A stretch of 64,000 bases of DNA from Kangiella marina (GTDB lineage: Bacteria > Pseudomonadota > Gammaproteobacteria > Enterobacterales > Kangiellaceae). The notes beneath the pieces were generated by a model. That model was not told the DNA's origin. It searched no databases and saw only the letters and a list, made by a program, of their open reading frames with translations. The stretch is taken from positions 62,001-126,000 of the forward strand of contig NZ_BAABFV010000002.1 of the NCBI RefSeq assembly GCF_039541235.1, in the 5' to 3' direction. Shown piece after piece: positions 1-48,986 of the stretch. Both the position numbers and the translations under genes were made by a program. The stretch's first letter is position 1, and each line of letters begins with the position of its first letter.

Positions 1-242
1 ATCGTAACCTGACAGTGTTTGCTATAGTTAAAATTTTGGTGCGAAATATAAGGTTAGCACCATAGCACCCTTTATATTGAGCTGAACGAAGAAGCAGTCA
101 TAGCAATTCAAATCGTGGATGATTTGAATAGTGAAATTCAGGCCATGGAGGGACTGTATTTCACGGTGCGTTAAGTGACTGATACGGAGTAAAGGTAATT
201 ATTCGTAGAATAATCTCAATATAGGGGCGTCTTTTCTTTTCG

Positions 243-25295: not shown

Positions 25296-26885
25296 ATGCA
25301 ACCTCTGTTTTCAGTTGATAGCATTAAAAAGATTGAGCAGGCTTTCGTTAAGCAGCAAGGCATCGAGCTGTATGAATTAATGCTGCGAGCGGGTGCTAGT
25401 GCATTTGAGCGAGCGCGGCGCTTGTGGCCACAAGCCAGCCACTGGTTGATTGCAACCGGGGCGGGGAATAACGCCGGCGATGGCCTGGTTGTTGCCAAAC
25501 ATGCGCTACAGGCAGGGTTTGACGTCACTTTGATTGCGTTAAAGCCGTATGCTGAGTTGCGTGGCGATCCCAAAAAAGCGTGGCAAGAGCTTCTCTCCAT
25601 GAAAAAAGAGCCGCATCAAACGTTCGATATTTTGAGTGTTGATGACGCTGAAGAATTGGATCTGTCTTTCGCCGAAGTGGTTATTGATGCGCTGTTGGGT
25701 ACGGGCGTTGACGGTGAATTAAGAGACCATTATCGTCTGATGATTGAAAGCTTGAACTCACTTGAGGCGCCAAAACTAGCCCTAGACATCCCAACCGGTG
25801 TTTATGCAGAGAGTGGTAACTGTGCGAAATACAATGGTCAAGATATCGCCTTCAAAGCCGACGCAACGATCAGCTTTATTGCCTTAAAGACTGGACAGCG
25901 ACTGAATCAGGCGCTCGAATACCAAGGGCAACTGTACTTGGATACACTCGGCGTTAAAAATCCCCTGGCTTTTGGCGAGCAGGCGACAGCATGGTCGGTA
26001 GATAGTCATCATCTTAGAGACAAGATTCCGACTCGTGGCAAAGTGGGCTCTAAGTTTGATTGCGGTCATGCGCTGATTGTCGGCGGTGGACAGAATCTCG
26101 GCGGTGCTGCGATCTTATCTGCGACAGCGGCAATAAAGTCCGGCTCAGGGCTGGTCTCTTGCTGGCTGCATGGTGACAACCAAACAGCTGCGTTGAGCCA
26201 CTGTCCGGAAGTGATGTGGCAAGCCTACCCTGAAAGCCCCGTCAGTAATGATTTTAAGCGCTTTCAAGCAGTGGGCTTTGGGCCTGGTTTGGGGCGCAGC
26301 GAAGCGGCTGAGCAGTACTTTCTTAGTAGCATGAAATGTCTCTATCAGCTTGATATTCCATGTGTTTTAGACGCCGACGGCCTTTATTGGCTGGCTCAAC
26401 ATACTTCCGTTGAATTACCGGCGAAGTGTATAATGACGCCGCATGCTGGGGAAGCGTGTCGTTTATTAAACGCTCAGCAAGAGGACGTTTTCTCGTCGGG
26501 TCGTATCGAACCGCAGTTAAGCGTAGATACAGCTTATGTTGAGCAAAATCGGATCCATGTTGCTCGTGCACTGGCCAAAAAGTACAGCGCGATTTGTGTG
26601 CTTAAAGGCGCTGGAACTGTCGTCAGTGATGGTGAGCAATGTTTTGTCTTGGCGGGCGCGCATCCTGCCATGATGACCGCTGGCCTTGGCGATGTGCTGA
26701 CAGGGTTAATGACCAGTCTCATCGCGCAGGGAGCGAAGCTGCTTGATGCAGCGTTAGTCGCAACCCAGTTACACTATGAAGCCGCTGTAAGTGTTGCGGG
26801 AGCGCGCCAAAGAGGTGTTTTAGCCTCAGAAGTGATCAATGAATTAGTGGTTTGGATCAATCAATTAGAACGGTCAGTTAAATAA
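25296..26885 (+). CDS. nnr: Bifunctional NAD(P)H-hydrate epimerase / dehydratase
   Basis: Repairs hydrated NADH and NADPH. The N-terminal YjeF_N epimerase domain (residues about 1-215) has GAGNNAGDGLVVAKHAL and ALLGTGVDGELR. The C-terminal ADP-dependent dehydratase domain (about 225-525) has GGGQNLGGAAILSATAAIKS, TPHAGEACRLL, VLKGAGTVV and the nucleotide-binding TAGLGDVLTG. 529 residues, a typical fused form. It starts 3 nt after orn and is followed by tsaE, the conserved E. coli neighbour. Confidence 0.95.
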   Translation: MQPLFSVDSIKKIEQAFVKQQGIELYELMLRAGASAFERARRLWPQASHWLIATGAGNNAGDGLVVAKHALQAGFDVTLIALKPYAELRGDPKKAWQELLSMKKEPHQTFDILSVDDAEELDLSFAEVVIDALLGTGVDGELRDHYRLMIESLNSLEAPKLALDIPTGVYAESGNCAKYNGQDIAFKADATISFIALKTGQRLNQALEYQGQLYLDTLGVKNPLAFGEQATAWSVDSHHLRDKIPTRGKVGSKFDCGHALIVGGGQNLGGAAILSATAAIKSGSGLVSCWLHGDNQTAALSHCPEVMWQAYPESPVSNDFKRFQAVGFGPGLGRSEAAEQYFLSSMKCLYQLDIPCVLDADGLYWLAQHTSVELPAKCIMTPHAGEACRLLNAQQEDVFSSGRIEPQLSVDTAYVEQNRIHVARALAKKYSAICVLKGAGTVVSDGEQCFVLAGAHPAMMTAGLGDVLTGLMTSLIAQGAKLLDAALVATQLHYEAAVSVAGARQRGVLASEVINELVVWINQLERSVK

Positions 26886-39883: not shown

Positions 39884-41665
39884 TTACTGAATGCTATAAA
39901 TAGAGACGCTGCCGCTGACTTCATTGGCAACAGCCAGTAACGGCTTGCCCGTTGGGCTATCTGCTGCACTGATAAAAACTAACCCTTCGGGCGCTAAGTC
40001 GCCGACCTGATCGTAAGCACCCTTCAAGGTAACAGGATCTGTATCATCATCGATCTCAAATTCTTGGCTGAAGTCACGGTTGTTGGTATAACTTTGGAAA
40101 ACCGGTTGACGTGGATCGCTCACATCGAAAATCATAATGCCACCCTGTCGCTCTAATCCCAGAAAGGCATAGGTCCTGCCTTCAATAACACCGGTGATGA
40201 GTGCTTCTGGCTCAGCACCTTTATCATCAGAACGACTATCGCCTTGGTTCTCAGATTCGTTGTTATTGAAGTCCTCGCCATAGTGTTTGAGAAGATATTG
40301 TTCGATGTAATCACCGCTATCAAATACTAAGTGACCTTCTTCATCCCAAATGCTGAATGAGCGTGCGCCGTAGCTGTAGAGTTTGTCGTACATACCGTCA
40401 TTGTTGTCATCACCGAGTACGTTAGTGACTTTGAGGCGGCCAATGCCATCTTTTTTGTAATAGGAATCAATAACCGAGGGTGACTTAATCGAGAGTTTTT
40501 TAACGCGGTATTCTTCACTGTAGCTGATGCACCCATCCTCGTCATCATACTTATGGCCAGCAGCTAAACACTCTGCCTTGGTAGCTGAGTAAATATATTC
40601 TCGGGCATCACCTTCGTTGGCGCTTAAAATATAGGTTTTGCCGTCAACTTGGTAGCTGGCTAGAGAGTCCGGTTGGTAGAGGCCATAAAGGTTTTCATAA
40701 TAGGCCGCATTAACGCCATCTTTGTTGCTAACATCAATCTTGTATTGACTCCAGTCTTTGTAGCCGAGTCCTTTAATGGCATCGATACGTTTTGATGCTA
40801 AGTCGATAATCGCTATGGCATTATTTTCTTGGAGGCTAACAAAAGCTTTATCATTATTGACGCTGACGGTGATGTATTCCGGCTCAAGGTCTTGGGCTAC
40901 AGAGGTGCCTTCAGGGCTAGCAAATTTAACCCCTGATTGCTCTAATTCAGCCCTTTGGTTATTGAACTGAGCAAAGCTAAGGTGCGTGGCTGTATTAGCA
41001 ATCTCAGTACCTATTTCAGTACCTATCTTAGTACTCATCTCAGTACTTATCTCAATGATGCTAATCGAACCTTCAGGATCATTGCGGTAATCGTGACTGG
41101 GTTCGCCTTCGTTGGCGACTAGAGCAAGAGTACCGTCATGAGTGAATGTCACCATATCCGGAAGTGAGCCGACCGATACTGCTTTAATAAAAGTCGTATG
41201 ATTACTATGAAGCTGATAAAAGAGTACGGCGCCTACTTGTTGTTCATCGCTGTGCGTGACCGCGACGGCCATCAGTTCGTCATGAATACTCAGTGAGCTG
41301 GGAGAGCCTATAGTTAATCTGCCTTGCTCATGGGTATCAATCGACGAAGGCAAGTTGAGACGTTGGCTGGTTAGGTTTTGGCCGCTGAAGGGAAGTGGAA
41401 GTACCTCGTCGGGTAAGCTTGAAATTGGAATAATATCAATGGCTTTAGCAGCGCCGTTAACCACATACAAATTATGATGCTTTGCATCATAGCCTAAAAT
41501 TTCAGCCGCTCCCTCGCCGTATTGTCCAGAGACATGGCGTGCAACCAGCTCGAGCTTCAAACTGCTTTCAGCAGCAGGCGAGGTTGGAGCCGTTGTCTTG
41601 CAGGCCACCAGTGAGCTTATTAATAGCGATGATAGTACACATAAGCTGAACACGACTTTTTTCAT
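39884..41665 (-). CDS. Choice-of-anchor I domain lipoprotein
   Basis: 593-residue surface or periplasmic lipoprotein. The signal peptide begins MKKVVFSLCVLSSLL, with lipobox LVAC (Cys near residue 22). The body is a beta-propeller-like choice-of-anchor-I domain, seen in GSLPDMVTFTHDGTLALVANEGEPSHDY, SVNNDKAFVSLQENNAIAIIDL and YILSANEGDAREY. Metal-like loops (DDNNDGMYD) occur near residue 430. Function is unknown; homologues are often annotated as alkaline-phosphatase-associated or cell-surface proteins. A 12-bp tandem repeat (41001-41048) lengthens one loop near residues 206-222. The start at 41665 matches the signal peptide. Confidence 0.85.
   Translation of the reverse strand: MKKVVFSLCVLSSLLISSLVACKTTAPTSPAAESSLKLELVARHVSGQYGEGAAEILGYDAKHHNLYVVNGAAKAIDIIPISSLPDEVLPLPFSGQNLTSQRLNLPSSIDTHEQGRLTIGSPSSLSIHDELMAVAVTHSDEQQVGAVLFYQLHSNHTTFIKAVSVGSLPDMVTFTHDGTLALVANEGEPSHDYRNDPEGSISIIEISTEMSTKIGTEIGTEIANTATHLSFAQFNNQRAELEQSGVKFASPEGTSVAQDLEPEYITVSVNNDKAFVSLQENNAIAIIDLASKRIDAIKGLGYKDWSQYKIDVSNKDGVNAAYYENLYGLYQPDSLASYQVDGKTYILSANEGDAREYIYSATKAECLAAGHKYDDEDGCISYSEEYRVKKLSIKSPSVIDSYYKKDGIGRLKVTNVLGDDNNDGMYDKLYSYGARSFSIWDEEGHLVFDSGDYIEQYLLKHYGEDFNNNESENQGDSRSDDKGAEPEALITGVIEGRTYAFLGLERQGGIMIFDVSDPRQPVFQSYTNNRDFSQEFEIDDDTDPVTLKGAYDQVGDLAPEGLVFISAADSPTGKPLLAVANEVSGSVSIYSIQ
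41001..41048 (-). repeat. Four in-frame 12-bp tandem repeats
   Basis: Four consecutive 12-bp units (plus strand form ATCTCAGTACCT, up to three differences each) encode the tetrapeptides ISTE, MSTK, IGTE and IGTE inside the choice-of-anchor-I protein. A fifth, degraded unit follows on the plus strand. In-frame length means copy number can change without a frameshift. Confidence 0.75.
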
Positions 41666-41761
41666 AAAAGACTCGTTAATTATCAACATCTTTGCTGATT
41701 ATGCGGCGATATTATGACAGGATGATGACATCTAGCCCTTAGAATAAAAAGTCATAAACGC

Positions 41762-41794
41762 TTTACAAGAAAAAAATTAGAGTGTAAATTCATT
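41762..41794 (+). promoter_or_regulatory. Candidate arg operon promoter with overlapping ArgR-like site
   Basis: TTTACA at 41762-41767 and TAAATT at 41785-41790, 17 bp apart, form a plausible sigma-70 promoter. The 18-bp window 41777-41794 matches the ARG-box consensus at 15 positions including unconstrained ones, with a perfect ATTCA half and a weak left half (AGAGT for TGAAT). If used, transcription would begin near 41797, about 90 nt before the leader ORF. Promoter and operator are predictions by eye. Confidence 0.5.
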
Positions 41795-41886
41795 GTCGTT
41801 GACGCCAACTTGCTCTTATCGTGGAGTAAAGATTGACCTAAATCAGCGAATGTAGCCAAACACAGACATATAGAGAAAGAATACGA

Positions 41887-41988
41887 ATGATACTTAACTT
41901 ATGTTTAACTGCTAACAGCAGTAATACCACACAACAACGACGTCGCAGCCGTATTATGCCGGCTGGGAGTAGCACGTTGTTGAAATAA
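41887..41988 (+). CDS. Arginine-rich leader peptide of the arg operon (33 codons)
   Basis: Short ORF from ATG 41887 to TAA 41986-41988, preceded by the purine-rich AGAGAAAGA about 6 nt upstream. It contains the control run CAA CAA CGA CGT CGC AGC CGT (Gln-Gln-Arg-Arg-Arg-Ser-Arg) at residues 16-22, using three different Arg codons. Its position upstream of a terminator and of arginine biosynthesis genes fits a translated sensor of charged tRNA-Arg. The peptide itself probably has no function. It is too short and featureless to be an ordinary protein gene. Confidence 0.75.
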   Translation: MILNLCLTANSSNTTQQRRRSRIMPAGSSTLLK

Positions 41989-42042
41989 GTATCTTCAAAA
42001 AACAACAGAATTTAAAACCCAGCCATCGGCTGGGTTTTTTTA
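41932..42042 (+). promoter_or_regulatory. Arg operon attenuator: protector, antiterminator and terminator
   Basis: Protector hairpin: CAACAACG 41932-41939 pairs with CGTTGTTG 41975-41982, and inside it CAGCCG 41946-41951 pairs with CGGCTG 41960-41965, covering the Arg codons. Antiterminator: GGCTGGG 41961-41967 is complementary to CCCAGCC 42018-42024. Terminator: ACCCAGCC 42017-42024 pairs with GGCTGGGT 42028-42035 (8 bp, 3-nt loop), followed by a T-run to 42041. A ribosome stalled at the Arg codons would free 41961-41967 to block the terminator. Mechanism inferred from the trp/his-type paradigm. Confidence 0.78.
42017..42041 (+). terminator. Intrinsic terminator in arg leader
   Basis: Perfect 8-bp GC-rich stem with ATC loop and seven T, located between the leader ORF and the first arg gene, with the argF' start 49 nt after the T-run. 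Confidence 0.92.
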
Positions 42043-42089: not shown

Positions 42090-43091
42090 ATGCAACATTT
42101 TTTAAGTACCGAAAGCTGGTCGCAGCACTCCTTGCAGGAGATGATCGACTTTGCCAAAGCACTCAAAAACAATAAATTTCAACCGCTGCTCAAAGAGAAG
42201 TCGGTTGCACTACTATTTTTTAACCCTTCTTTGAGAACACGAACGAGCTTTGAATTAGGCGTGCATCAACTCGGTGGCCAAGCTGTTATCTTGCAGCCTG
42301 GAAAAGATGCTTGGCCGATTGAATTTGAGCTGGGTTCAATCATGGATGGCGAAGCCGAAGAGCACATCAAAGAAGTGGCTCAAGTATTGTCGAGTTACTG
42401 TGATCTCATCGCCGTCAGAGCATTCCCAAAGTTTGAGAGCTGGCAAGAGGATCGTCAGGATAAGCTGATTAAGTCACTAGCTCATTTCTCAAGCGTACCA
42501 GTGATCAATATGGAAACCATTACTCACCCCTGCCAAGAGTTAGCGCACATCATGGCGTTACAAGAAAATTTAGGTGACTTGAAGGGCAAAAAGTATGTCC
42601 TGACTTGGACTTATCATCCGAAGCCATTAAACACAGCGGTAGCAAACTCAGCCTTAATGATAGCCAGTAAGTTTGGCATGGACGTCACTTTGTTGTGTCC
42701 GAATGACGATTACGTGCTGGATGAGCACTACATGGCTCTGGGACAAAGTTACAGCGCCCAACACGGTCATCAACTGACTGTATCGCACGATATTGATAGT
42801 GCTTACCAAGGGGCCGATGTGGTGTATGCCAAAAGTTGGGGAGCGTTACCTTACTTTGGCCAGTGGGAAAAAGAAAAGCCCATCAGAGATCAATACAAGC
42901 ACTTTATGGTGGATGAAGCAAAAATGGCAAAAACCAACAATGCCTTGTTTAGTCACTGTTTGCCATTAAGACGAAATATAAAAGCGTCGGACGAAGTCGT
43001 TGACTCGAAAAACTGTATTGCGATCGAGGAAGCGGGCAATCGGTTGCATGTCCAGAAATCCATTATGAATACGTTAATTAATCATTCTTAA
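42090..43091 (+). CDS. argF': N-acetylornithine carbamoyltransferase
   Basis: Carbamoylates N-acetyl-L-ornithine to N-acetyl-L-citrulline, in place of the usual ornithine carbamoyltransferase. 333 residues, colinear with Xanthomonas AOTCase from memory. FFNPSLRTRTSFELG (43-57) is the carbamoyl-phosphate site and HPCQE (146-150) is present. Glu90 aligns with Xanthomonas Glu92, which selects acetylornithine over succinylornithine, and Lys298 aligns with the carboxylated Lys302. The SHCLPLRRN motif at 288-296 replaces the HCLP context of OTC. First gene of the operon; AGGA ribosome site 7 nt upstream. Confidence 0.93.
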   Translation: MQHFLSTESWSQHSLQEMIDFAKALKNNKFQPLLKEKSVALLFFNPSLRTRTSFELGVHQLGGQAVILQPGKDAWPIEFELGSIMDGEAEEHIKEVAQVLSSYCDLIAVRAFPKFESWQEDRQDKLIKSLAHFSSVPVINMETITHPCQELAHIMALQENLGDLKGKKYVLTWTYHPKPLNTAVANSALMIASKFGMDVTLLCPNDDYVLDEHYMALGQSYSAQHGHQLTVSHDIDSAYQGADVVYAKSWGALPYFGQWEKEKPIRDQYKHFMVDEAKMAKTNNALFSHCLPLRRNIKASDEVVDSKNCIAIEEAGNRLHVQKSIMNTLINHS

Positions 43092-43101
43092 GGTGAGCAT
43101 T

Positions 43102-44310
43102 GTGAATAAAGAAAAAGTTGTTTTAGCATTTTCGGGCGGTTTGGATACCAGTTTTTGCGTGCCTTATTTAATTGATAAGGGATTTGAAGTGCATACGCTA
43201 TTCGTTAATACCGGTGGTGTGAGCACTCAAGTTGTGGATGAGATAGAGCAAACCGCGATTAAGCTCGGTGCAGAAAAACACTGGACGATTGATGGTCAAC
43301 AGGAGTTGTGGAACACCATCATTAAGCCATTGGTTTGGGGGAATGCATTGTATCAAGATCAATACCCCGTGTTATGTGCAGATCGGTACTTAATAGCCAA
43401 AGAAGCTGTCCAATTGTGTAAGAAATTACAGACCAATTATGTGGCGCATGGTTGTACGGGGATGGGGAATGATCAGGTACGTTTTGATTTATCGATTAAG
43501 GCGCTAAGTGATTTAACAATACTATCGCCCATACGCGACATTCAAAAAGACATTACTGACGTTCGTCAGTATGAAATTGATTACCTAGCAAACAAAGGAC
43601 ATGAGGTTTCTGCAACTCACAAAAAATACAGTATTAACGAAAACTTACTTGGGGTAACCGTCTCAGGAGGTGCGATTGATAAGTGGCTAGCGCCTGAAGA
43701 TAACACTTATATTTTAACGAGCTTGCCAGAGAAGAGACCATCTACTTCGACTAACTTAAAGCTTGAGTTTGTTGAAGGAGAGCTTAAGGCGATCAATGGT
43801 GAGGCGCTGCATGGTGTCGCTGCCATGCAACAGTTAAACACTATGCTTGGAGGCTATGGCATTGGTCGCGGCATCTATACCGGCGACACCATTATTGGAT
43901 TAAAAGGACGAATTGTATTTGAAGCGCCAGCTTTAATGGGGTTACTGGCTGCGCATAAAGCCTTAGAAGAAGTGGTGTTGACGCAACAACAAAATCACTT
44001 TAAGCCATTGCTTGCAAAAAAGTGGGTTGAGTTGGTTTACCAGGGATTTTATTTCGACCCACTGACGGCGAATATTCAGAAGTTTTTAGAATCGTCTCAA
44101 AAAAATGTTACTGGCATAGTTGAGCTTAAAGTTAGCGCGGGTCATGTGGAAGCTGTGGCTATCGATAGCTCTTATATGATCATCAACAAAGACGTTGAGT
44201 ATGCGCAGAAAGCAAACTGGGGTATTGAGGAAGCTACAGGTTTTATCAAGTTGTTTGGCCAAAGCACTGCGACTTGGTCAAGCGTCCAGAAAGCAGACGG
44301 TGGTTTCTGA
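43102..44310 (+). CDS. argG: Argininosuccinate synthase
   Basis: ATP-dependent ligation of citrulline and aspartate. The N-terminal P-loop is AFSGGLDTSFC, with the family motifs GCTGMGNDQVRF and SINENLLGVTVSGG. About 402 residues. The GTG at 43102 is favoured because AAGGTGAG at 43090-43097 ends 4 nt before it. The frame is also open from GTG 43093. It starts 10 nt after argF' and its stop overlaps the next start by one base. In this route citrulline is supplied by deacetylation of acetylcitrulline. Confidence 0.93.
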   Translation: MNKEKVVLAFSGGLDTSFCVPYLIDKGFEVHTLFVNTGGVSTQVVDEIEQTAIKLGAEKHWTIDGQQELWNTIIKPLVWGNALYQDQYPVLCADRYLIAKEAVQLCKKLQTNYVAHGCTGMGNDQVRFDLSIKALSDLTILSPIRDIQKDITDVRQYEIDYLANKGHEVSATHKKYSINENLLGVTVSGGAIDKWLAPEDNTYILTSLPEKRPSTSTNLKLEFVEGELKAINGEALHGVAAMQQLNTMLGGYGIGRGIYTGDTIIGLKGRIVFEAPALMGLLAAHKALEEVVLTQQQNHFKPLLAKKWVELVYQGFYFDPLTANIQKFLESSQKNVTGIVELKVSAGHVEAVAIDSSYMIINKDVEYAQKANWGIEEATGFIKLFGQSTATWSSVQKADGGF

Positions 44311-45419
44311 TGTCATTACTCAATATTATTGCCAAGACTCAATCAGCTCCTACAATGGGGCTGGTTAAAAAACACTTGAGGGCTTTAGTGAGCTTTGACA
44401 CGACCAACCCTCCAAGAAATATTATTGAATCAGGGATAGTCGAATACTTACAAAGTCAATTGCATGATGCTGACATTAAAGTCACGGATTATGGTCATGG
44501 TTCAGTCAATATACTGGCGACTAAAGGCCAACCCAAGTATCTGTTTAATTATCATATTGATACGGTGCCTGTAACCGAGGGCTGGGATACCGATCCTTTT
44601 GAACTGCATGAAGGCGAGGGTAAGTTTTATGGATTAGGTGCTTGTGATATCAAAGGTGCGGCGGCTTGTCTGTTGGCCTGTATTGAAGCTGGCTTAAATG
44701 ATTATGCGGTACTATTTTCATCGGATGAGGAGCATGGAAACAGTTTGTGCGTAACATCATTTCTCAAGGATAAACACTCGTATCAAGGCGTTATTGTAGC
44801 AGAACCAACTCAAGCAAAAGCGGTATTAGCCCATCGAGGCATTGTTACTGCGACTGCTTATTTTGAAGCAGAAAGTGGCCACAGTTCTGAGCCGCGTGCA
44901 CTAAAGGAAAACAGCAACCATCAAGCTGCTTATTGGATGGTAAAAGCCGTTGAGTGGGGCGAGGAAAAACTCAATCACCAGTATGACAATCTAACTGGAG
45001 TTTGCCTTAATATCGGCAAAGTCGAAGGCGGCATTAAACCCAATATCATTGCACCAAGCACAAAAGTGACGTTTGGAATGCGGCCATTACCAGGTAATGA
45101 TGTTGAGGATACTTTAGTTGAATTGTTGGAGGATACTCACTTAAACAACAGTACTGTAGACATTGGATTTAAAGCACCATCACTGCCTGCTTGTCAGTCG
45201 AATCTTGACAATAAAGCACTCGCAGATGCTCTAAAGTTGCCAGTAGGAAGCCCTGTTAGTTTTTGGACCGAAGCGGCGCTGTTTTCCGCAGCAGGTTATC
45301 CCTCGCTGGTATTTGGCCCTGGTTCCATTGAGCAAGCTCACACCGCAAATGAGTGGGTATTAAAATCGGACTTGGAAAAAGTAATGAAGCAGTATTGGAG
45401 GATTTTAAGTCATGGCTAG
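44310..45419 (+). CDS. argE: N-acetyl-citrulline deacetylase (ArgE family, M20 peptidase fold)
   Basis: Zinc-dependent M20 deacetylase, 369 residues. Metal and catalytic residues: HIDTVP (His, Asp), ACDIKGAAA (Asp), SSDEEHG (Glu pair), VAEPT and the late His in EQAHTANEW. From sequence alone it could act on acetylornithine. Its position in an operon with acetylornithine carbamoyltransferase implies acetylcitrulline as substrate, as for the Xanthomonas enzyme (inference). Its start overlaps the argG stop (TGATG) and its end overlaps argBA by 8 nt. Confidence 0.88.
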   Translation: MSLLNIIAKTQSAPTMGLVKKHLRALVSFDTTNPPRNIIESGIVEYLQSQLHDADIKVTDYGHGSVNILATKGQPKYLFNYHIDTVPVTEGWDTDPFELHEGEGKFYGLGACDIKGAAACLLACIEAGLNDYAVLFSSDEEHGNSLCVTSFLKDKHSYQGVIVAEPTQAKAVLAHRGIVTATAYFEAESGHSSEPRALKENSNHQAAYWMVKAVEWGEEKLNHQYDNLTGVCLNIGKVEGGIKPNIIAPSTKVTFGMRPLPGNDVEDTLVELLEDTHLNNSTVDIGFKAPSLPACQSNLDNKALADALKLPVGSPVSFWTEAALFSAAGYPSLVFGPGSIEQAHTANEWVLKSDLEKVMKQYWRILSHG

Positions 45420-46734
45420 CTCAGTGAAGGACACGATTTATAAGTTGTTAACCGTGATGGAAAGCGAAACTCAGATAAGGAAGTACCTGAAACGATTTTC
45501 TTCAGAGCAGGGGTTAAAGTTCGCGGTTATTAAAGTGGGTGGCAATATTTTAAAAGAAGATATGAGCAACCTTGTGACATCGCTAACGTTCTTAAAGCAA
45601 GTTGGTTTAACGCCGATTATTGTTCATGGTGCTGGCCCACAGCTGACCGAAAAGTTAGCTCAGAATAATATTGATACGCGATTTATTGAGGGGCAACGCG
45701 TCACTAGCCCAGAAGTTCTTAAAGCAGCGCGTGATGTTTTTATTGGTGAAAACCATAACCTGGCTGCGAAGCTTAAAGAAGCTGGCGTCGATGCGACCTC
45801 CTTTTATTCAGGAGTTTTTGAGTGTGATCTTGATCATCAATCATCACTTGGGTTGGTTGGAGAGATTACTTCTGTGCAAGTTGATCAATTACTTAATTCC
45901 GTTCAAAAAGGGCGGATTCCGGTGGTCAGTCCCATAGGTGAAACTTGCGCAGGACAGATAGTCAATATTAATGCAGACTCTGCAACTTTTAGCTTGGCGA
46001 AAGCGATACAACCTTACAAAATTATTTTTCTGACTGAGACGGGAGGTGTTCTTAACAAGGAGGGGCTCATTATCCCTAATATCAGTATTGTGAATAACTA
46101 CAAATATCTGATTCAACAACCGTGGGTTCACTCAGGCATGAAACTAAAGTTACAAAAGATTAAAGATATTTTGGAAGTCATGCCAGCAGCAACGTCTGTA
46201 TCGATCACGAAACCTGATCTCCTAGCCAAAGAGCTTTTTACCGATAAAGGGTCCGGCACACTGGTCAATATGGGCGAGAAAGCTGTAGTTTCAAATTCAT
46301 GGGACGGGATTGACCAAGAGAAGCTTAAAAGACTCATTGAGTCATCCTTCAACAAACAGCTCGATACGAATTACTTTTTGAGTGTTCCATTACATAAAGT
46401 GTATGTCACTGAATGTTATAGAGCAGCGATTGTTTTAGTCGAGACCGGCGGTATTCCTTACTTGGATAAATTTGTGGTCAGTGATGATGCCAAAGGCGAG
46501 GGCATTGGTCGTGCACTGTGGGATAAGGTGGTGAGGAAAAACTCACAGCTTTTTTGGAGAGCGGGTCTCAATAATCCTATCAACAAGTTTTATGCTTCTG
46601 TTGCAGATGGCTTTATGAAGTGTGATCAGTGGAAAGTCTACTGGCTGGGCATCACGAAGTATCCCGATATCGAATATTGCGTTAACTTTGCTGAGAGCAA
46701 AAACCGCACTGTTTATGAGGGGCTGGCGATATGA
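45412..46734 (+). CDS. argBA: Fused N-acetylglutamate kinase / N-acetylglutamate synthase
   Basis: Bifunctional enzyme for the first two arginine steps, as in Xanthomonas. The N-terminal amino-acid-kinase domain (residues about 35-280) has KVGGNILKEDM, IIVHGAGPQLTEKL and NINADSATFSLAKAI. The C-terminal GNAT-type domain (about 285-440) has DKFVVSDDAKGEGIGRALWDK, whose GEGIGRAL is the acetyl-CoA loop, and FWRAGLNNPINKFYASVADG. 440 residues. Arginine feedback inhibition is known for this class of fusion. The ATG at 45412 overlaps the argE stop, and its end overlaps argC (ATGA). Confidence 0.9.
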   Translation: MASSVKDTIYKLLTVMESETQIRKYLKRFSSEQGLKFAVIKVGGNILKEDMSNLVTSLTFLKQVGLTPIIVHGAGPQLTEKLAQNNIDTRFIEGQRVTSPEVLKAARDVFIGENHNLAAKLKEAGVDATSFYSGVFECDLDHQSSLGLVGEITSVQVDQLLNSVQKGRIPVVSPIGETCAGQIVNINADSATFSLAKAIQPYKIIFLTETGGVLNKEGLIIPNISIVNNYKYLIQQPWVHSGMKLKLQKIKDILEVMPAATSVSITKPDLLAKELFTDKGSGTLVNMGEKAVVSNSWDGIDQEKLKRLIESSFNKQLDTNYFLSVPLHKVYVTECYRAAIVLVETGGIPYLDKFVVSDDAKGEGIGRALWDKVVRKNSQLFWRAGLNNPINKFYASVADGFMKCDQWKVYWLGITKYPDIEYCVNFAESKNRTVYEGLAI

Positions 46735-47657
46735 GCATCAAAGCAGTTTTAATTGGGGCTAGAGGTTATGTTGGCGCAGAGTTAATGACACTGATATCTC
46801 GGCACTCATCGATTGATTTAATCGCCGCGAGTTCAAGGGAGCTTGAGGGAAAGGCAGTAAAGCACTATCGAAAAAAAGAGCTGGTGTATCGGGATTTAAG
46901 TCCGCAAGACTTAGTTGAGTTATCGCCAGACTTGGTTATTTTAGCGCTACCTAATGGTTTATCATCTGACTTTGTTACCGCTATTGATAGTCACTGCCCG
47001 AAGACCACTTTGATTGATCTCAGTGCGGATTATCGGTTCGATCCTTCTTGGCATTATGCCTTACCTGAAGTTGTTGAGCAGAAAGTGTCATCTCGAATCA
47101 GTAATCCAGGGTGTTATGCGACAGCAATGCAGTTGAGCTTGGCGCCTGTGAACCATTTGATCGCGGCGAGAGTGAGCTGCTTCGGCGTGTCGGGATATAG
47201 TGGTGCTGGAACCACCCCTTCGGATAAAAATAATACCGCGTTATTAGCTGGTAATATTATGCCCTATAGCTTGGCGAATCACTTGCACGAAAAAGAAGTG
47301 TCCTACCAGCTTGATGTGGACATTAAATTTTCACCTCATGTTGCCGAGTTTTTTAGGGGCATAAGTTTAACCTCGCACATTCCACTTATAGAATCTGTTA
47401 GTGAAGGTGAGATCGAAACACTTTATCAAGACTACTACTACAATGCCGAACTGGTGCAGGTACAGAGTGAGGCGCCTCAAATAACCCAAGTCGCAAAGAC
47501 CTGTCATGCCATCATTGGAGGTTGGACTTTATCGGACGATGGAACTCACTTAGCCGTGAATTGCGCGCTGGACAATTTACTCAAAGGGGCTGCTTCTCAG
47601 GCCATCCAGAATATCAACATTACTTTTGGGCTTCCACAGCTTGAAGCTTTGACATAA
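46731..47657 (+). CDS. argC: N-acetyl-gamma-glutamyl-phosphate reductase
   Basis: NADPH-dependent reduction of acetylglutamyl phosphate to the semialdehyde. The 308-residue protein has the N-terminal Rossmann segment IGARGYVGAELMTLI, SNPGCYATAMQLSL with the catalytic Cys, and SGYSGAGTTPSDKN. It is of the short ArgC type. It overlaps argBA by 4 nt and precedes argH by 12 nt. No argD (acetylornithine aminotransferase) is present, so that step must be encoded elsewhere. Confidence 0.93.
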   Translation: MSIKAVLIGARGYVGAELMTLISRHSSIDLIAASSRELEGKAVKHYRKKELVYRDLSPQDLVELSPDLVILALPNGLSSDFVTAIDSHCPKTTLIDLSADYRFDPSWHYALPEVVEQKVSSRISNPGCYATAMQLSLAPVNHLIAARVSCFGVSGYSGAGTTPSDKNNTALLAGNIMPYSLANHLHEKEVSYQLDVDIKFSPHVAEFFRGISLTSHIPLIESVSEGEIETLYQDYYYNAELVQVQSEAPQITQVAKTCHAIIGGWTLSDDGTHLAVNCALDNLLKGAASQAIQNINITFGLPQLEALT

Positions 47658-47669
47658 GAGGTACACTTT

Positions 47670-48986
47670 ATGACGCAACCACTTTGGAGCAAAAGCCAGA
47701 ATAACGCCGGCTCTGCCTTACTTGGGAAAATTACCAACTTTATGTCGGGACATGATGTTATTTCAGATCGTGATTTATTGCTCTATGACATCCAGGCCAG
47801 CAAAGTTCATGCTGAAGGACTCATGAAAATTGGTGTATTGAGTGAACAAGAATTGAGTCAGATTAACGAAGCCTTATCGTTACTGTCGCAAGAGTTTGCT
47901 AGCGGAACATTTGTGCTGGATGAGCGCTTTGAGGATTGTCACTCGGCCATTGAATGGTACTTAACCCATAAACTTGGCGAGACAGGGAAAAAAATTCACA
48001 CAGGGAGAAGTCGTAACGATCAAGTCTCGACTGCAACTCGATTGTACTGCCGCGATGCACTTTTACGATTACAAAAACAATCTATTGCGATTGCGGATAC
48101 CTGTTTAGAATTGGCCCAGAAGTATGAGTTTGTGGTACTTCCGGGCTATACCCACCTACAAAGAGCCGTCGTCTCAAGCTGGGGAATGTGGTTTGCTGCT
48201 TTTGCAGAATCTTTTGTCGATAATGCGACACAAGCTAAAGATACTCATGATCTGATCAATTCTAATCCACTCGGTACTGCTGCGGGCTATGGCGTTAACT
48301 TGAAACTGGATCGAGATTACACCACGCAAGCACTGAGTTTCAATCGTAAACAAGTGAATCCCATCTATGCACAAAATAGTCGAGGGAAGATCGAGTTACA
48401 AGTGCTTTCCAACTTTAAAAATGCGTTGCTGGATGTTCGCCGTCTGTCTTGGGACTTGAGTTTGTTTTCGACTGCGGAGTATGGCTTTGTTGACGTTGGT
48501 GATCATTTTAGTACCGGCTCTTCTATTATGCCGAATAAACATAACCCGGACGCGGTGGAGTTAATGCGAGCGTCTTATTCTCAGTTAGTCGGTGCTTATA
48601 ATGAATTGGAATCTTTATTGTCTTTACCCAGCGGCTATCAACGTGATTTACAAAATACCAAAGGGGCATTGTTGAGAGGCGTTCAATCGGCGACGCAGTG
48701 TCTCGACCTTTTGCCTGAACTACTTCAATCGCTGACCATCAATACTTCGCGTTGTGAAGCGGCTATTGACGCATCAATGTTTGCTACTGATAAAGCGGTG
48801 GAATTAGTGATTAATGAAGGGATGGCCTTTAGGGATGCTTATCGTCATATCAAGCATAATTATGATGAATTGCAAGATCGGCAGGCTGCTGACTCGATAA
48901 AGGCCCGAGTGTCGCCAGGCGCTTGTGGAGACTTGTTGTTGGTGGAAATCTCGGATCGATTAAAGGCGTTAAAGTCTGAACTTTGA
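47670..48986 (+). CDS. argH: Argininosuccinate lyase
   Basis: Final enzyme, which splits argininosuccinate into arginine and fumarate. 438 residues of the fumarase/aspartase superfamily, with HTGRSRNDQVSTATRLY near residue 110, the catalytic TGSSIMPNKHNPD loop and YTHLQRAVVSSWG. Slightly shorter than E. coli ArgH. It closes the operon and is convergent with hldE, with a hairpin at 49002-49023 between them. Confidence 0.94.
   Translation: MTQPLWSKSQNNAGSALLGKITNFMSGHDVISDRDLLLYDIQASKVHAEGLMKIGVLSEQELSQINEALSLLSQEFASGTFVLDERFEDCHSAIEWYLTHKLGETGKKIHTGRSRNDQVSTATRLYCRDALLRLQKQSIAIADTCLELAQKYEFVVLPGYTHLQRAVVSSWGMWFAAFAESFVDNATQAKDTHDLINSNPLGTAAGYGVNLKLDRDYTTQALSFNRKQVNPIYAQNSRGKIELQVLSNFKNALLDVRRLSWDLSLFSTAEYGFVDVGDHFSTGSSIMPNKHNPDAVELMRASYSQLVGAYNELESLLSLPSGYQRDLQNTKGALLRGVQSATQCLDLLPELLQSLTINTSRCEAAIDASMFATDKAVELVINEGMAFRDAYRHIKHNYDELQDRQAADSIKARVSPGACGDLLLVEISDRLKALKSEL

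Follow-up and report, generated by a model that had tools for sequence, protein, structure and literature searches.

The window is a stretch of 64,000 nucleotides from the 2.51-Mb genome of Kangiella marina, and its forward strand carries the six-gene cluster argF'-argG-argE-argB/A-argC-argH. Pfam and NCBIfam models assign all six genes, which lie 3' of a short leader, to the arginine pathway. The first gene, argF' (42090-43091), encodes N-acetylornithine carbamoyltransferase and matches NCBIfam NF003384 with 573.5 bits against a cut-off of 288. It is followed by argG for argininosuccinate synthase (43093-44310; Pfam PF00764 and PF20979) and by a gene for an argE-like M20 deacetylase (44274-45419; Pfam PF01546), whose listed start is TTG and whose true start probably lies later. 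The remaining genes encode an acetylglutamate kinase with a NAT domain, of the argB/argA type (45412-46734; NCBIfam NF003387, Pfam PF00696 and PF04768), an argC-like semialdehyde dehydrogenase (46731-47657; Pfam PF01118) and an argH-like lyase (47670-48986; Pfam PF00206). The gene upstream of the leader (39884-41689) is on the opposite strand.

The leader ORF (41887-41988, forward strand) has 33 codons and a stop codon at 41986, encodes the peptide MILNLCLTANSSNTTQQRRRSRIMPAGSSTLLK and resembles leaders found in relatives. Its ATG at 41887 is the sole ATG, GTG or TTG that the leader frame contains from the in-frame stop at 41839 up to the Arg codons. Four of the five codons at 41938-41952 (CGA CGT CGC AGC CGT, for Arg Arg Arg Ser Arg) specify arginine, as an earlier sequence-only reading of the locus had claimed. 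The Arg codons of this run are the putative control codons, and the first three vary only synonymously in 24 Kangiellaceae-type leaders. A motif scan places a promoter-like site, TTTACA-17-TAAATT (41762-41790, forward strand), upstream of the ORF; seven such sites were found in the 2.5 kb scanned, with 4.9 expected. In 11 of 12 Kangiella loci, the top-scoring site 5' of the leader has the form TTTAC(A/T)-17-TA(A/C/G)A(T/C)T; in the twelfth (L006), such a site is visible by eye. The sequence-only reading had named a transcription start downstream of 41990 as a finding that would count against it; the predicted promoter instead precedes the leader ORF.

An intrinsic terminator (42014-42041, forward strand) sits between the leader ORF and the first gene. 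Its stem and loop span 42014-42038, and a T-run extends to 42041, 48 nt before the argF' ATG. The terminator and T-run had been recognized previously, but the stem is 11 bp with a 3-nt loop rather than 8 bp, and the gap had been given as 49 nt. The minimum free energy (MFE) fold of the 183-nt leader reaches -55.3 kcal/mol (z = -6.8; none of 200 shuffles is as good) and contains the nested hairpin over the Arg codons that had been proposed from the letters. This protector (1:2; 41932-41982, forward strand) pairs 41932-41939 with 41975-41982, 41940-41944 with 41967-41970, and 41946-41951 with 41960-41965. Segment 2 (41961-41982) consists of GGCTGGG at 41961-41967 and TTGTTG at 41977-41982. Segment 3 (42003-42024), its partner in the antiterminator on the same strand, consists of CAACAG at 42003-42008 and CCCAGCC at 42018-42024. 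The repeat noted earlier is also real: a second copy of GGCTGGG lies in the terminator at 42028, next to its complement CCCAGCC at 42018. When the 3' arm of the terminator is barred from pairing, the fold yields an antiterminator of -17.8 kcal/mol made of 41961-41967/42018-42024 and 41977-41982/42003-42008, which bears out the antiterminator pairing proposed before and adds a second helix to it.

Two other features of the window were considered and set aside. A translation gate formed by pairing 41889-41896 with 41986-41993 is absent, by eye, from the other Kangiella leaders. An Arg-rich ORF at 26360 is nested in a 529-aa ORF on the same strand and is taken as a chance occurrence.

Distribution of the leader ahead of argF'

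The census covers 122 argF' loci: 26 from the family of the window, four from 369 genomes of the class, the best 80 of at least 581 relatives from one named collection, and 12 of 60 places in the family to which genome G406 belongs. Removing 12 duplicates and two loci with short upstream DNA (L011 and L026) leaves 108 distinct upstream regions. Four loci with 34-39% identity to ArgF' (L031-L034), whose upstream DNA resembles coding sequence by eye, were excluded from the census. Leader detection initially accepted only ORFs with at least three Arg in six codons; the motifs used for the census (RRR followed by S(x)R, R or T; and TSRAR) were composed after inspection of the sequences.

Of the 108 regions, 106 combine an Arg-codon leader with a terminator, 25 of them Kangiellaceae-type and 81 Xanthomonadales-type. 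The direct census finds the leader in 105 regions (24 and 81, respectively), each with a terminator (105 of 105). The 106th is L023, where the leader and, by eye, the terminator lie farther upstream (L138), with about 430 nt between the end of the terminator and argF'. Segment 2 retains GCTGGG there, in a shifted reading frame, so it is conserved as RNA and not as the Ala-Gly that it encodes elsewhere. The only two regions of the 108 in which argF' is found without such a leader, L041 and L078, are both on MAG contigs. The genome of L011 also has a leader, at the end of a different contig (L139). Among the named records that carry the leader are Kangiella, Aliikangiella, Xanthomonas, Stenotrophomonas, Pseudoxanthomonas, Lysobacter, Luteimonas, Rhodanobacter, Frateuria and Oleiagrimonas, and one of the 24 Kangiellaceae-type leaders comes from a MAG filed under Aeromonadales (L089).

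Several records invite comment in their own right. The taxonomic labels of the MAG contigs L041, L078 and L089 may be doubtful. Contig L084 is labeled Bacillus subtilis, but its argF' and leader are Stenotrophomonas-like; it is probably contamination. In L023 (G012:C72), the roughly 430 nt between attenuator and argF' contain repeats by eye. In the annotated Xanthomonas sacchari record, whose gene table is incomplete, the leader is not covered by any listed gene. Viral contigs were scanned for close ArgF' relatives, and none was confirmed.

Copies in front of other genes were sought with two models. The Kangiella model R1, run over 40 genomes of the family, gives 37 matches at E <= 0.01, and every match with E below 1e-12 lies before argF'; it missed one genome (G006), in which the leader is known from L021. 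Four further R1 matches (L135, L136, L137 and L141) are his leaders before hisG rather than arginine copies, and eight (L140, L142 and L162-L167) are terminators that lie within or behind other reading frames or in intergenic DNA and have no Arg leader. The Xanthomonadales model R2, run over the 369 class genomes, gives 27 matches. The four strong ones all lie at argF'; of the 23 weaker ones, eight were inspected. Two of these eight lie before argD and show a GMT peptide, but this peptide is the tail of a longer ORF that reads like a membrane protein and has a terminator behind it. The other six fall on the tail of some other reading frame or on a terminator between genes; the Arg-rich end in L152 belongs to an open frame of 522 codons. 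In the K. marina genome, argD has neither a listed leader with at least three Arg in six codons nor a GCTGGG or GCCGGG within 450 nt upstream. A 26-codon ORF before carA does have three Arg in six codons, but the 450 nt upstream of carA also contain no GCTGGG or GCCGGG.

The his operon of the same genome has leaders of its own. Before hisG (L143:1121-1500; G000:C2, about 478659-479038) lie two tandem His leader peptides, MKTLLNTLHHHHHHTNVLAVS and MNLISQLHHHHHTLRERRWDELYMAK, with one terminator each, forming a tandem his attenuator. Paired His-rich ORFs are also seen by eye in L135, L136, L137 and L141.

Segment pairing and ribosome position

The comparative alignment suggested by the sequence-only reading was carried out as pair counts rather than with R-scape; it revealed covariation in the Xanthomonadales and none within the invariant Kangiella sequences. 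Among the 97 loci with GGG in segment 2 (the eight of 105 without it were set aside), an A in segment 3 is matched by a T in segment 2 in 63 of 63 cases, and a G in segment 3 by a C in 22 cases and by a T, as a G-U pair, in 12. In a set of 36 from the 81 Xanthomonadales-type sequences, pairing is intact in 98.4% of antiterminator cells, 13 of them double-changed, and in 100% of terminator cells, with 17 double-changed. None of 500 shuffles of this set matches the pairing values or the covariation scores of either structure. The double changes fall in one antiterminator pair and, bar one cell, in one terminator pair, and the number of double-changed antiterminator pairs is itself unremarkable (431 of 500 shuffles are as high). 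Twelve sequences, 11 from other Kangiellaceae genera plus L089, give a weak signal, with one double-changed cell and a score equalled by 31 of 500 shuffles. The stems are invariant in the 12 Kangiella sequences, hence the lack of covariation within that genus. On a tree of the 108 ArgF' proteins, in which 51 of 105 inner branches are left open, segment 3 changed at least six times and segment 2 at least four; well-supported branches hold just two independent segment 3 changes or pairs, too few for a sign test. Covariation across genera, mainly in one pair, thus indicates that an antiterminator excluding the terminator is probably maintained. Together with the presence of leader and terminator in almost every argF' upstream region, the Xanthomonadales covariation gives good support to the translated attenuator first suggested for the window.

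The position of the ribosome was modeled by placing its A site on each leader codon and computing the probability (P) that segment 2 pairs with segment 3 downstream. In the window, P is 1.0 at the first three Arg codons with all three footprints and 1.0, 0.71 and 0.41 at the fourth. High values begin up to five codons ahead of the Arg run; before that P lies between 0 and 0.28, and from a few codons past the run to the stop it is zero. Values above 0.5 are reached at four of four Arg codons of the window leader and at six of its 29 other codons. The 24 Kangiellaceae-type leaders, which are related and not independent, exceed 0.5 at 99 of 99 Arg-run codons compared with 170 of 568 others. Among the 81 Xanthomonadales-type leaders, also related rather than independent, the figures are 232 of 247 and 1155 of 1906. 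Early in the leader, the mean P is about 0.3 to 0.4 in the Kangiellaceae type compared with 0.55 to 0.73 in the Xanthomonadales type. With the A site at the stop codon, P exceeds 0.5 in none of the 105 leaders. As a positive control, his leader 1 of the K. marina genome scores above 0.5 at six of six His codons and two of 15 others, as sharp as the arginine leader of the window. His leader 2 (five of five compared with eight of 21) and the his leader of L135 (five of five compared with 10 of 14) are less sharp.

The state of the 5' arm of the terminator was followed in 27 sequences. With a ribosome on the Arg codons, the arm is paired in all 27, and with a ribosome at the stop codon it is free in 19 and partly, mostly weakly, paired in eight. 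Compared with shuffles, 22 of 24 Kangiellaceae-type and 66 of 81 Xanthomonadales-type loci stand out at the 5% level; chance alone pairs the arm in roughly 29% of shuffles for the 24 loci and roughly 35% for the 81, and it is unpaired in three of the 81. In these models, the control codons are predicted to sit where a stalled ribosome, unlike one at the stop codon, frees segment 2. Without a ribosome, 11 of the 27 sequences leave the arm free, and the other 16 pair it partly or mostly. The protector appears in the MFE fold of the window but is not the predicted default in those 16, and because the state without a ribosome varies in this way, it is the least certain part of the device.

Candidate attenuation mechanism and its rivals

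The combined evidence points to a ribosome-mediated transcription attenuator by which the supply of charged tRNA-Arg would govern argF'-argG-argE-argB/A-argC-argH, a reading to which we assign a probability of about 0.87. Its basis lies in sequence and computation: the parts are present and conserved, pairs covary across genera, Arg codons coincide with antiterminating ribosome positions, and ArgR has no match. From these we infer translation of the leader, the start site of transcription, ribosome stalling, conditional termination and the response to charged tRNA-Arg. Transcription would start near 41798, with the leader ORF translated close behind the polymerase. Under ample arginine, the ribosome would reach the stop codon and mask segment 2, allowing the terminator to form. 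When charged tRNA-Arg is scarce, the ribosome would stall on CGA CGT CGC AGC CGT, occupying segment 1 and freeing segment 2, which would then pair with segment 3, block the terminator and permit transcription of the operon. If no ribosome is present, the protector would capture segment 2 and termination would be the default.

Some leader peptides, such as SpeFL and TnaC, act as nascent-peptide sensors that arrest the ribosome in a sequence-specific manner. The leader here could likewise encode a specific peptide that arrests the ribosome on arginine, ornithine or another ligand, in which case the Arg codons would belong to an arrest motif and not to a counter of tRNA-Arg. The Xanthomonadales-type leaders lend some weight to this idea, as their core, A.(M)A.GMTSRARR, is under amino-acid selection. 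Values of pN/pS in this core are 0.10 to 0.21, compared with about 1 on either side; for the 13 codons as a whole the value is 0.20, and it is 0.21 in a thinned set of 46 and still 0.20 when the Arg codons are left out, figures that come from short windows and non-independent pairs and to which RNA pairing may add constraint. Eight core residues are identical in 81 of 81 sequences, and five of these are Ala, Thr or Ser. This constraint exceeds what a codon counter needs and is the basis for a nascent-chain reading, hinting at a peptide-level component in the Xanthomonadales. The window, however, belongs to the Kangiellaceae type, in which constraint is confined to the Arg codons: across the 24 leaders, the first three Arg codons show only synonymous changes and a pN/pS of 0, and the flanks have values of 0.85 and 0.93, subject to the same limits of window length and dependence. 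The Arg run also varies among RRRSR, RRRSxR, RRRR, RRRRR and RRRT, in varied contexts. Constrained Arg codons between neutral-looking flanks are what a codon counter would leave behind, and an arrest peptide is accordingly an improbable account of this locus.

Two other explanations dispense with arginine as the signal read by the leader. One holds that any slowing of the ribosome, or any uncoupling of transcription from translation, lifts termination, the Arg codons being simply a slow patch. CGA is decoded slowly, and it is the first Arg codon in all 12 Kangiella leaders and the last in 77 of the 81 Xanthomonadales-type ones; the antiterminating stretch also extends to codons ahead of the Arg run. 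A general sensor of this kind fits poorly with a downstream cluster devoted to the arginine pathway and with a predicted antiterminating stretch that is short and ends at the Arg run, and CGA is not rare in the window (17.9% of Arg codons); we regard it as quite improbable. The other takes the ORF as a chance occurrence beside a plain terminator, the operon being controlled by a protein or a different RNA element. Arg-rich short ORFs do arise by chance, since four or more Arg in six codons occur in nine of the window's 1054 short ORFs, the one at 26360 among them, so the ORF alone is weak evidence and conservation carries the case. That conservation, across 106 of 108 loci, argues strongly against coincidence. 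The terminator is not the end of the gene at 39884-41689, because that gene is on the opposite strand. No match to ArgR occurs in the K. marina genome, and Rfam returns nothing at the gathering score for the attenuator region, the 11 sub-threshold matches including no T-box or riboswitch. A chance ORF is therefore a very improbable explanation.

Relation to known leaders and to ArgR

Ribosome-mediated leader-peptide attenuation is established for the trp, his, leu, thr, ilv and phe operons. To our knowledge, arginine is not usually listed among the amino acids with biosynthetic operons attenuated in this way. The window shares with the classical attenuators codons for the end product in the leader peptide, a stop after segment 2, mutually exclusive antiterminator and terminator, and the cognate operon directly downstream; it differs in having arginine codons ahead of an arginine operon. 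His leader 1 of the same genome and the arginine leader also behave alike in the ribosome scan. The locus is thus very probably a classical attenuator, with a mechanism of a known kind.

T-boxes achieve amino acid control by another route, binding uncharged tRNA directly, without a leader peptide. Arginine T-boxes are named in the accessible text of PMC1262725. Like the candidate attenuator, they would place arginine genes under RNA-level control by tRNA-Arg, but a T-box covariance model finds no match in the attenuator region.

The nearest known case is the speF leader of Salmonella, orf34, in which two consecutive Arg codons sense arginine by ribosome pausing, according to the available part of PMC6386406. 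The same source describes control of ornithine decarboxylase by way of Rho, RNase G and the accessibility of the ribosome-binding site of speF, and assigns the DUF2618 domain to orf34. The two leaders are alike in that Arg codons would sense arginine. They differ in that the speF leader precedes the ornithine decarboxylase gene, whereas the leader in the window precedes argF'; moreover, four leader peptides that were tried match no Pfam family, DUF2618 included. A second parallel is the cysS uORF motif uORFC-8-2 of the Rhodobacterales, a computationally found attenuator with two Cys codons (PMC8632094, as far as its accessible text describes it). It too concerns an amino acid outside the classical list, but it controls a tRNA synthetase and occurs in other taxa.

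The sequence-only reading knew of no described arginine attenuator of this kind. None was found among the open-access papers listed either, including PMC6386406, PMC8632094, PMC5343134, PMC4997734, PMC2965389, PMC1262725, PMC1382215, PMC10219788 and PMC2659441, and an earlier prediction may exist in subscription papers or supplements. Within that literature, the arginine specificity, the breadth across two groups of Gammaproteobacteria and the apparent replacement of ArgR look new. A conserved, testable arginine attenuator can now be placed in a broad set of bacteria.

ArgR, a DNA-binding repressor, has a regulon in Gammaproteobacteria that covers the same arginine pathway (PMC5343134, in the part available). 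The sequence-only reading had named ArgR as the usual control of arginine operons. ArgR is not found in the K. marina genome by a search that detected it in nine of 14 named control genomes, eight of them above the cut-off. Among 40 genomes of the family, some incomplete, argF' occurs in 25 and ArgR in six, with both in none and neither in nine. In the G051 family, where the leaders are of the Xanthomonadales type, ArgR is likewise not found in any of the 99 genomes searched. The attenuator presumably took over from ArgR. Within this one family, argF' with its leader and ArgR do not co-occur, which may be a natural swap of regulatory systems. The conserved attenuator also suggests how Xanthomonas, Stenotrophomonas, Lysobacter and others could regulate arginine synthesis where ArgR is not found.

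A broader scenario is offered tentatively, and we think it rather doubtful. A single lineage of arginine attenuators may move with the argF' operon, replacing ArgR in both Kangiellaceae and Xanthomonadales, while the conserved Xanthomonadales peptide A.MA.GMTSRARR may itself have come to arrest the ribosome, sensing arginine or an intermediate of the pathway from within the exit tunnel. If so, a codon-counting attenuator and a nascent-chain sensor would be two branches derived from one another. The Xanthomonadales branch offers a direct route to asking how a codon-counting leader can gain a peptide-level function.

Three minor observations concern the surrounding material. In seven genomes of the Kangiella group (G019, G023, G024, G027, G029, G030 and G031), argF' and ArgR are both undetected, and the arginine pathway may have been lost. 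In Xanthomonas sacchari (L156; NZ_CP010410.1), the arginine operon, with dksA and proB nearby, lies on a 508-kb record labeled as a plasmid, which may be a piece of the chromosome. Far from the leader, at window positions 101-176, Rfam reports a TwoAYGGAY RNA with 47 bits against a gathering score of 43.
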